A stretch of DNA of 64,000 bases, from contig JAICLE010000004.1 in NCBI GenBank assembly GCA_025927545.1, forward strand, positions 1 through 64,000, read 5' to 3'. This DNA comes from Gemmatimonadales bacterium. GTDB lineage: Bacteria > Gemmatimonadota > Gemmatimonadetes > Gemmatimonadales > GWC2-71-9. How positions within the stretch are numbered: position 1 is the first letter of the stretch; every line of letters begins with the position of its first letter. The notes beneath the pieces are model-generated. The model saw nothing but the letters and a program-made list of their open reading frames with translations, made no database searches and was not told the DNA's origin. Position numbers and translations under genes: made by a program. Of this stretch, positions 2,728 through 38,345 are shown one piece after another.

Positions 2728-3735
2728 CTACTGCCAGCGCACCAGGCTCGCCCCGATCGTCAGTCCCGCCCCCACCGCTACGAACACCACCAGGTCTCCG
2801 CGCTCGATCTTCCCCGCCAGCAGCGCGTCCTCGAGGGCGAGCGGCAGCGTCGCCGCGGTGGTGTTGCCGTAGCGGGCGATGACCGACGCCATCCGCTCCT
2901 TCGGCACTCCCAGCCGCTCGGCCGTGGCGTCCAGGATCCGCTGGTTGGCCTGGTGCGGGATCACCATGGCGATGTCCCTCGGCGCGAGCCCCTGGCGCTG
3001 GAGCAGGGTGGTGATGCTCTCCGCCATCTGGGACACGGCGAACTTGAACACCGTCTTCCCGTTCTGCCGCAGGTAGTGCTCGCGGGCGTTCACCGTCTCG
3101 TGGCTCGCCGGGCGGAGACAGCCGCCGGCCGGCATGAGCAGGTCGTCACGCCCGCTCCCGTCCACCCGGTGATAGAAGTCGAGCAGGCCGTACCCCGGCT
3201 CGGCCGGCTCGAGGAGCACGGCGCCCGCGGCGTCACCGAAGAGCACGGCGGTGGTGCGGTCGAGCGGATCGATGATCGCACTCATCAGATCCGAGCAGGC
3301 GAGGATCACGCGGCGGTGCGTGCCCGACGCGACGAGCTGCGCCGCGGTAGTCAGACCGTAGAGGAAGCCGGAGCACGCGGCCGACAGGTCGAAGCCCCAG
3401 GTGTTCCGGAGGCCGACCTGGTCCTGCACCAGGCAGGCGGTAGCGGGGAACAGCATGTCGGGCGTGACGGTGGCCACGATGAGCGCGTCCACGTCGTCCG
3501 GGCCGAGGTCGCGCGCCGCCATGAGCCGTCGGACGGCCTCGGTGGCCATCGTGGACGTGGTTTCGCCCGGCGCGGCGATCCGCCGCTCGCGGATCCCGGT
3601 GCGGCTCACGATCCACTCGTCCGACGTGTCGAGCCGCTCGGCGAACTCGGCGTTCGTCACCCGGCGCTCGGGCACGTACGTGGCGACGCCGGTGATGGCG
3701 GCGCGCGGCGGGACGGACCCGGCAGGGGTGGGCAT
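2728..3735 (-). CDS. fabH: Beta-ketoacyl-ACP synthase III
   Basis: 'ACSGFLYGL' active-site Cys region, 'IPHQANQRI', 'GNTTAATLP'. Confidence 0.95.
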
Positions 3736-20964: not shown

Positions 20965-20972
20965 TGGCGGGC

Positions 20973-21611
20973 ATGTGGACGCTTCCGAACGTCATCACGC
21001 TCATTCGGATCTGCTTCACGCCGGTCATCGCGCTGCTCCCGTTCATCGAGGGATACTGGCCCAAGCTGATCGCGTTCTTCGTCTTTCTGGCCGCGGCGCT
21101 GAGCGACGTCTACGACGGGCACCTGGCGCGGAGCCGGAACGAGGTCACTGATCTCGGCAAGCTGCTCGATCCCATCGCCGACAAGCTGCTGCTGTTCGCG
21201 ACCCTGATCCCGATCTACTGGATCTCCCGCCAGCGCCACGATCTCTACGACATTCCGGTGTGGGGCAGCATCCCGCTCTGGGTGTGCCTCCTGCTGATCG
21301 GGCGGGAAGTGGCCATGACGCTGTTCCGCTGGTGGGCCAGCCGGCGCGGGGTGGTGATCCCCGCCGGCAACGCCGGCAAGCTCAAGACGACCATCCAGAA
21401 CATTTTCATCGGCGCCGTGATCCTGTGGTTCGCCTTCCGCGACGCACGGAAGCCGATGGGCTGGGAGCACAGCCGCTTCGCCGATTACTGGAACGAGTTC
21501 CACGGCGGGTTCGTCGCGGTGACGCTGGCGGTGGCGACGCTGCTCACGGTCTATTCATTCGTGCTCTATCTCTACCGTAACCGGGCGCTCTTTTCTCACC
21601 GGCATCAGTGA
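20973..21611 (+). CDS. pgsA: CDP-diacylglycerol--glycerol-3-phosphate 3-phosphatidyltransferase
   Basis: 'LPNVITLIRICFTPVIALL', CDP-alcohol phosphotransferase motif 'SDVYDGHLARSRNEVTDLGKLLDPIADKLL'. Confidence 0.92.
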   Translation: MWTLPNVITLIRICFTPVIALLPFIEGYWPKLIAFFVFLAAALSDVYDGHLARSRNEVTDLGKLLDPIADKLLLFATLIPIYWISRQRHDLYDIPVWGSIPLWVCLLLIGREVAMTLFRWWASRRGVVIPAGNAGKLKTTIQNIFIGAVILWFAFRDARKPMGWEHSRFADYWNEFHGGFVAVTLAVATLLTVYSFVLYLYRNRALFSHRHQ

Positions 21612-21626
21612 GAGGCGGGGATCGGG

Positions 21627-21727
21627 TTCACCACAGAGGCACAGAGGGCACGGAGGTACACGGAGAAAACAACCAGTTGTTTGCTGTGCTCTGTGGTCCT
21701 CCGTGCCCTCTGTGCCTCTGTGGTGAA
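21627..21727. repeat. 101-nt palindromic element with perfect 30-bp inverted arms (21627-21656 / 21698-21727)
   Basis: TTCACCACAGAGGCACAGAGGGCACGGAGG versus exact reverse complement CCTCCGTGCCCTCTGTGCCTCTGTGGTGAA; AAACAACCAGTTGTTT at centre. Confidence 0.97.
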
Positions 21728-21740
21728 TGACAGGTGCCCC

Positions 21741-22979
21741 ATGAATCTCGAACTCCGCCCGATCGGCACCGAGCTGCTGCTCGGCTTCACCACTGACACG
21801 AACGCCGCGGAAAGCGCCCGGGTGCTCTCGGCGGCAGGGGTGCGGGTGGTGCGCCGCGCCAGCGTCGGTGACAATGCGGACGATATCCGGGACGCGGTCA
21901 GCGCAGCCCTCGATCGCACCGGCGCCGTGCTCACCACCGGCGGCCTTGGCCCGACCCGCGACGACGTCACCAAGCGCGCCGTGGCGGAGCTGTTCGGCGC
22001 GCCATTCGCGTTCGATGCCACGGTGTGGGCAGACCTGGTCGAGCGGTTTACCCGGCTCGGGCGAACGCCGCCGCCCAGCAACCGGAGCCAGGCGGAGGTG
22101 CCGCGCGGTGCGACGGTGCTCCGGAACCGGTGGGGTACGGCGCCCGGGTTGTGGCTCGAGGGCGAGCCCGGCCTGGTGATCATGCTGCCGGGCGTGCCGG
22201 GCGAGATGCGGAAGCTGCTGGACCATGAAGTGGTGCCCCGCCTCGCGGGCCGGGCCGGCGGACTGGTGGTGCGCTCTCGCCTGGTGCGCACGACGGCCAT
22301 CGCCGAGTCGGCGCTCGCCGAGCGGATGGGAGAGATCGAACGGGAAATCGCGCCGCTCACGCTCGCCTATCTGCCTGGGCCCGACGGCGTGGACTTGCGG
22401 CTCAGCGCGTGGCGGCTGCCGCCGGCAGAGGCCGAGCGCCGCCTGGACGCCGCGGCGGCGGTGCTTCGCGGGCGCGCGGGCGAGCATGCGTACGGTGGGG
22501 ACGACGCCGACCTCGCGGCCGTCGTCCTCGACGCGGCCCGCGACCGCCACCTGACGATCGCCACCGCCGAGTCGTGCACCGGCGGACTCGTCGGCGGACG
22601 GCTGACCGCGATTGCCGGCAGCTCCGAGATCTACCTCGGCGGCGCCGTGTGTTACGCCGACGCGCTCAAGACGGGGCTGCTCGGCGTCGAACCGTCGCTG
22701 CTCCAGGCACACGGGGCGGTAAGCGAGCCGGTCGCGCTCGCCATGGCGCTGGGTGCGGTCGAGCGACTCGGCGCGGGCGCGGCGGTATCGGTGACCGGCA
22801 TCGCCGGGCCGGGCGGTGGCAGCGCGGAGAAGCCGGTGGGCACGGTGTGGATCGGCGCCGCGGCGGGCGGCCGGGCCGAGGCGCGCCACGCGATACTGTC
22901 GGGTGATCGGCAGGAGATCCGCGCCCGCGCGGCGCAACTCGCGCTGTACCGCCTGCTGGGGGCGCTGCGCACGGGCTAG
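21741..22979 (+). CDS. cinA: CinA-family nicotinamide-nucleotide amidohydrolase / competence-damage protein
   Basis: 'IGTELLLGFTTDTNA', 'TTGGLGPTRDD', 'ATAESCTGGLVGGRLTAIAGSSEIYLGG'. Confidence 0.94.
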   Translation: MNLELRPIGTELLLGFTTDTNAAESARVLSAAGVRVVRRASVGDNADDIRDAVSAALDRTGAVLTTGGLGPTRDDVTKRAVAELFGAPFAFDATVWADLVERFTRLGRTPPPSNRSQAEVPRGATVLRNRWGTAPGLWLEGEPGLVIMLPGVPGEMRKLLDHEVVPRLAGRAGGLVVRSRLVRTTAIAESALAERMGEIEREIAPLTLAYLPGPDGVDLRLSAWRLPPAEAERRLDAAAAVLRGRAGEHAYGGDDADLAAVVLDAARDRHLTIATAESCTGGLVGGRLTAIAGSSEIYLGGAVCYADALKTGLLGVEPSLLQAHGAVSEPVALAMALGAVERLGAGAAVSVTGIAGPGGGSAEKPVGTVWIGAAAGGRAEARHAILSGDRQEIRARAAQLALYRLLGALRTG

Positions 22980-38233: not shown

Positions 38234-38248
38234 AGCGGGAAGATAGAA

Positions 38249-38345
38249 GCGGTGAGCGGTAAGCGGTAAGCGGTGAGTGGTGACCCCGATCGCCCGCGTA
38301 GCGCGAGCACCTACCTCTCACCGCTTACCGCTCACCGCTCACCGC
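38249..38345. repeat. Imperfect palindrome built of GCGGTRAGCGG units (arms 38249-38278 / 38316-38345, 28/30 complementary)
   Basis: gcggtgagcggtaagcggtaagcggtgagt versus tctcaccgcttaccgctcaccgctcaccgc. Confidence 0.92.

Follow-up and report, generated by a model that had tools for sequence, protein, structure and literature searches.

The hairpin that lies between a pgsA-like gene and cinA in the window (the whole stretch of 64,000 nucleotides that was analysed) very probably belongs to a family of short, MITE-like relatives of a small element encoding the protein GxxExxY. A fuller reading, in which these hairpins are MITE-like copies whose movement is driven by the GxxExxY nuclease, is given a probability of about 0.5. 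GxxExxY is by association the best candidate for the mobiliser, and we infer that it moves the elements. Such intergenic palindromes often go unannotated or are recorded as junk ORFs, and we know of no mobiliser for them. The arms are common to the short repeat and to a GxxExxY locus; therefore, a candidate partner protein can now be named for an unannotated repeat.

The initial annotation described perfect 30-nt arms, a 41-nt loop and a central motif at 21627-21727, and this description was borne out. The inverted arms are exactly complementary over 30 nt, the loop measures 41 nt, AAACAACCAGTTGTTT is found at the centre, and the repeat extends imperfectly to 39 nt with a 92% match (Table 1). 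The region has an RNA minimum free energy of -94.8 kcal/mol vs. -48.5 ± 4.4 kcal/mol for 200 shuffles (z = -10.6), and none of the shuffles equalled it. The hairpin starts 15 nt after the pgsA stop codon (21609-21611), and 13 nt separate its end from the ATG of cinA (21741); both flanking genes are on the + strand. This intergenic copy contains no ORF and is the only arm-core copy in the window.

Table 1. Features at and around the hairpin between pgsA and cinA (positions in the window).
Feature	Position	Strand	Remarks
pgsA-like CDP-alcohol phosphatidyltransferase gene, upstream	20970..21611 (start approximate)	+	Named from translation
Left arm, perfect 30-nt inverted repeat	21627..21656	+	Tandem units ACCACAGAGG CACAGAGGG CACGGAGG; arm type that also brackets GxxExxY on contig C6
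Interior, 41 nt	21657..21697	.	Imperfect stem extension (to 39 nt) and central AAACAACCAGTTGTTT
Right arm	21698..21727	-	Exact reverse complement of the left arm
cinA, downstream	21741..22979	+	Named from translation; hairpin leaves the ATG and the likely ribosome-binding site free

Copies were counted in the genome that contains the window (G000; 3.48 Mb, 181 contigs, 91% complete) by pattern searches with the 21-nt arm core TTCACCACAGAGGCACAGAGG, allowing up to 3 mismatches. The core was matched 52 times (25 forward and 27 reverse), with 0 and 0 matches for the reversed pattern used as a control, and almost all of the cores stand in facing pairs, about 26 in number. The genome-wide census proposed in the initial annotation thus reveals a dispersed repeat, and the case in which it would be unique to this locus does not hold. 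Among congeners, the number of core matches ranges from 0 to about 50. Short copies are about 54-200 bp in length (about 62-158 bp in G000 and G001); the 24 paired copies of G000 are mostly about 83-158 bp, with one pair 442 bp apart. The centre AACAAC-n-GTTGTT recurs in the subfamily of about 100 bp, and the class of about 149 bp has a different one. The 21-nt arms are identical in 10 of the 24 copies, and a 30/30 arm match is seen in two, including the copy at pgsA-cinA. Being short, multicopy, bounded by terminal inverted repeats and free of ORFs, these copies display the features of MITEs; no relics of GxxExxY were recognised in the short copies of G000.

A long copy was found on contig C6 of the same genome, where facing arms at 3334 and 3775 enclose the only GxxExxY gene detected in G000 (C6:3378-3728), a partner that the initial annotation had missed. 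Since the start codon of the gene is located at the left arm (ATGATTCACCACAGAGG...), this arm encodes the N-terminal leader MIHHRGTEGTEE (MIHHRGTEGTE). The protein scores 146 bits against TIGR04256, for which the cut-off is 35, and matches PF13366 (PDDEXK_3) with E = 2e-41. Judged by its sequence, GxxExxY is a predicted Cas4/RecB-like PD-(D/E)XK nuclease. Like the Cas4/RecB enzymes it has the D, ExK and QxxxY motifs, which are invariant in GxxExxY (D78, E88-x-K90 and Q102-xxx-Y106), and its similarity to Cas4 profiles is weak but repeated; unlike them, it is shorter and occurs alone inside palindromic arms. AlphaFold, given an alignment of 12 sequences, produced a poor model (pLDDT 56), and no homologue was found in the PDB by sequence search. 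To our knowledge, PD-(D/E)XK nucleases do not carry out transposition on their own. There is a case in which the GxxExxY annotation falls on a gene that another pipeline names cas4 (PMC8934634).

The gene is under purifying selection. In a sample consisting of one locus common to four congeners and one other locus in G006, differences per site amount to 0.55-0.71 at third codon positions vs. 0.13-0.26 at second positions, the former far exceeding the latter in all pairs. The dN/dS ratio is about 0.26 in two pairs at the common locus, locus A (dS near 1.4), and dS is saturated in the remaining pairs. In G008, perfect 22-nt arms surround a GxxExxY gene that lacks about residues 44-80. Such a deletion derivative is what one would expect midway between the long and the short forms.

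The association of arms with GxxExxY extends over four phyla. The loci came from Gemmatimonadota relatives, a scan of named genomes, and whole genomes of Bacteroidota, Planctomycetota and Verrucomicrobiota reached from those loci; an inverted repeat was sought between the 120-nt flanks up- and downstream of each gene, with ORFs in the same DNA as controls. Strong inverted arms were found at 27 of 57 GxxExxY genes vs. 1 of 111 control ORFs, in a set of loci that is partly non-independent, with some fragments and several species of Larkinella in it. Arms were not detected at about half of the 57 genes. The arm sequences vary by genome (CACAGAGG, CACGAAGG, CGCAAAGG, CACGAATCA, CGCAGATGG, GCGGAGTTAA). 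Most of them are nevertheless built of tandem 8-10-nt units, roughly C[AG]C[AG][AG]A followed by 2-4 nt, and the purine-rich strand of the units is the coding strand, upstream of GxxExxY. A strand-aware motif for the unit, derived from part of the loci on which it was later tested, occurs upstream of 36% of GxxExxY genes vs. 1% of controls and at both ends of 19% vs. 0 of 113. The statement in the initial annotation that the repeat is present in unrelated bacteria is consistent with these related arms in other phyla.

The reverse test leads to the same gene. A search of 395 Gemmatimonadota genomes for facing arms with an interior of 385-415 nt gave 6 sites and 0 in the control, and all 6 enclose GxxExxY in uniform orientation; because the size window was taken from the known element, this indicates only that there is no common alternative cargo of that size.

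GxxExxY was detected in 9 of 11 Gemmatimonadota genomes with an excess of arm motifs and in 5 of 17 without it. No GxxExxY gene was detected in G002, a 97%-complete genome with 242 arm motifs, or in G009, an 81%-complete one with 67. These two genomes contradict a strict dependence of the repeat on GxxExxY. In view of G002 and the 5 of 17, the gene may be a passenger, may act from outside, or may disappear once an expansion has taken place. The copies of G002 (L236-L265) have their own CACGGAGG arm type with longer conserved outer flanks, AAAGCGAACCACGG.

The initial annotation took the perfect arms as a sign of recent insertion or gene conversion. Comparison of slots by joined-flank searches and alignments showed that the pgsA-cinA site is empty in G002, G003, G004, and G026, in agreement with insertion. 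Recency is not simply implied, since in G001 another member of the family fills the slot and the sharing of occupied slots across the genus is strong; in G006, the site contains a different hairpin. Testable slots are also filled in 7 of 8 cases in G001 and 6 of 7 in G005, vs. about 1-4% of background tiles. The elements in common slots often differ in arm type, and some are wholly unrelated hairpins. At locus E (L022 in G000, orthologues L168-L172), five congeners have five kinds of hairpin, with arms of CACAGAGG type in G000, CACGGAACC in G002, GTCATCCTGAGCG in G003, CACGAAGG in G005, and GGAAGCGGGG in G006. The locus is empty in G004, a genome in which the hairpin is absent from every tested slot and the repeat is not in excess. 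Since slots are common but element types differ, either these slots are hot spots or one hairpin replaces another where it stands. Repeated insertion at such hot spots fits at least as well as recent insertion, and so does homogenisation of both arms. A check for target-site duplication, also proposed at the outset, gave no exact direct repeats of at least 3 nt in 24 copies, and 2-nt matches were at chance level.

GATC occurs within 20 nt outside the left end of 12 of the 24 G000 copies (background 12%) and outside the right end of 4 of 24; it is a possible target or terminal motif. In two copies, L011 1476-1674 and L245, the palindrome reaches about 20-25 nt outward past the usual ends. As both are near the end of a contig, the extension may be an assembly effect.

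The reading in which GxxExxY drives the movement has to be compared with other explanations. Against it stand the motif-rich genomes G002 and G009, the presence of the gene in genomes without excess motifs, the GxxExxY genes that lack arms, the short G000 copies in which no relic was recognised, and the fact that PD-(D/E)XK nucleases are not known to transpose on their own. It is conceivable, if unlikely, that the palindromes arise by a host process: hairpins of inverted tandem units would spread by replication or repair slippage or by template switching at intergenic hot spots, whatever protein they encode, and the GxxExxY and four-helix-bundle genes would be cargo that gains from the hairpin. 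The unrelated hairpin families that fill the single slot of locus E across congeners are in line with this, as are the absence of target-site duplications and the abundance of copies in G002 without GxxExxY. The four-helix-bundle genes deserve attention here. Among the PF05635 (23S_rRNA_IVP) genes L193-L203 of the same genus and order, strong inverted arms are present at 9 of 11 vs. 0 of 12 controls, and these arms are mostly tandem 7-9-nt units other than those of GxxExxY. Their presence in elements of the same architecture counts against the nuclease-driven reading, as a common host mechanism could do the moving; it also suggests that the architectural class is wider than the GxxExxY branch. 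However, a host process leaves unexplained why one unit class brackets one gene family with fixed polarity in four phyla and why GxxExxY is inside 6 of 6 long-interior arm pairs.

A classical MITE or REP element could also be moved in trans by a transposase encoded elsewhere, be it a RAYT/TIRYT tyrosine transposase or that of another IS. The repeat resembles MITEs in its size, copy number and terminal inverted repeats, and RAYT genes with long flanking terminal inverted repeats are on record (PMC3733652). Nevertheless, this route is judged improbable: target-site duplications are absent, and the targeted size search found no ORF between arms except GxxExxY. The ends of the short copies are common to the GxxExxY nuclease element, and the transposase survey covered the Y1 family. 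No Y1 (PF01797) gene was detected in G000, which is 91% complete, and the single genes in G001, G004 and G006 are not flanked by arms. RAYT/TIRYT as the mobiliser is not supported on these grounds, and the RAYT transposase suggested in the initial annotation was not encountered in G000. Lastly, RNA or DNA hairpins may be selected at intergenic boundaries for mRNA processing, termination or as boundary elements, with occupancy under selection and sequence turned over by arm homogenisation. The very stable fold, the position between co-directional genes with the cinA start left free, and the genus-wide sharing of slots in G001 and G005 far above background would suit such a role. It is very improbable given that copy number varies from 0 to many inside one genus and that G004 is empty at all tested slots, with no excess of the repeat; moreover, an Rfam search of the hairpin returned nothing above the gathering score, the matches below it being one snoRNA and generic hairpins of miRNA precursors.

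If movement is driven by GxxExxY, the sequence of events may be as follows. The complete element would be a single ORF, GxxExxY, inside inverted arms of tandem 8-10-nt units, and the hairpin at pgsA-cinA would be a non-autonomous MITE-like copy in this family of small genomic elements. The nuclease would recognise the repeated arm units, either as a duplex or as an extruded hairpin. Cleavage would then let host repair copy the element into intergenic breaks without strand transfer by a transposase, and could also permit homogenisation of the two arms. The short copies would be moved in trans or left as relics.

Spread by phage or plasmid was considered and rejected. GxxExxY is present in 8 of 72,556 plasmids and was met once among viral contigs in a pattern scan, and neither plasmids nor E. 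coli gave a match to the hairpin.

Several known systems resemble these elements in part. Prokaryotic MITEs (PMC10969869) are likewise short, multicopy and mostly ORF-less with terminal inverted repeats, and here too a deletion derivative connects long and short forms; unlike in MITEs, target-site duplication is absent and no transposase was identified in the survey of Y1. REP/REPIN-RAYT and TIRYT/TIRtron systems (PMC3733652, PMC3116915) share dispersed intergenic palindromes and one partner gene with copies of the repeat on its flanks, but the partner here is a predicted PD-(D/E)XK nuclease in place of an HUH/Y1 enzyme, and the arms are long arrays of tandem units. The 23S rRNA intervening sequences (IVS) with S23p are of sporadic distribution and also comprise a stem-loop around one small ORF with tandem units before the start codon; in Coxiella burnetii, a stem-loop of about 430 nt contains one S23p ORF, and GACAGAT heptamers stand just before its ATG (PMC4990558). 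In contrast to IVS/S23p, the protein here is a putative nuclease instead of a four-helix bundle, the arm units are other ones, the site is between protein genes and not in rRNA, and the GxxExxY family has many short ORF-less copies. The hairpin is not itself an IVS, namely a PF05635 protein inside 23S rRNA, as the copy at pgsA-cinA is ORF-less and the long form encodes GxxExxY.

A broader proposal, which we regard as tentative, is that these elements form a cross-phylum class of mobile elements without a transposase. Each would have one ORF (GxxExxY or a four-helix-bundle S23p-like protein) inside inverted tandem 7-10-nt units, spread without target duplication by nuclease- or hairpin-driven repair, and shed ORF-less palindromes that lie behind many unannotated intergenic repeats of environmental bacteria. 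The IVS/S23p elements, the mobility of which is unexplained, would be placed in the same architectural class. With the arms tied to a named, conserved nuclease, the spread of hairpins to distant phyla becomes a biochemical question, i.e., whether GxxExxY binds or cuts its own arms. If it does, this would be a transposition-like system without a transposase.

In the open literature (5.39 million papers), arm strings gave two matches, both by chance, and the repeat appeared to be undescribed. GxxExxY is named there in two papers, neither of them concerned with repeats, and no description of its link to the arms was found; subscription papers or preprints may already describe either one.

Other palindromes were seen along the way. 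On contigs C20, C207 and C220 of G022 the arms are concentric, with an outer CACGAAG pair about 20-40 nt beyond an inner CACAGAG/CACGGAG pair, as if stacked. The window itself contains a second tandem-unit palindrome at 38248-38345, with GCGGTGAGCGGTAAGCGGTAAGCGGTGAGTGGT arms (8-nt units) that resemble in style those bracketing the PF05635 four-helix-bundle genes of relatives. A third strong hairpin is located at 24-123 and has 40-nt arms of the GTCATCCCGAGCGGAGCGAGGGATCT type; in G003, hairpins of this type also occupy the orthologous slots at loci E and I.
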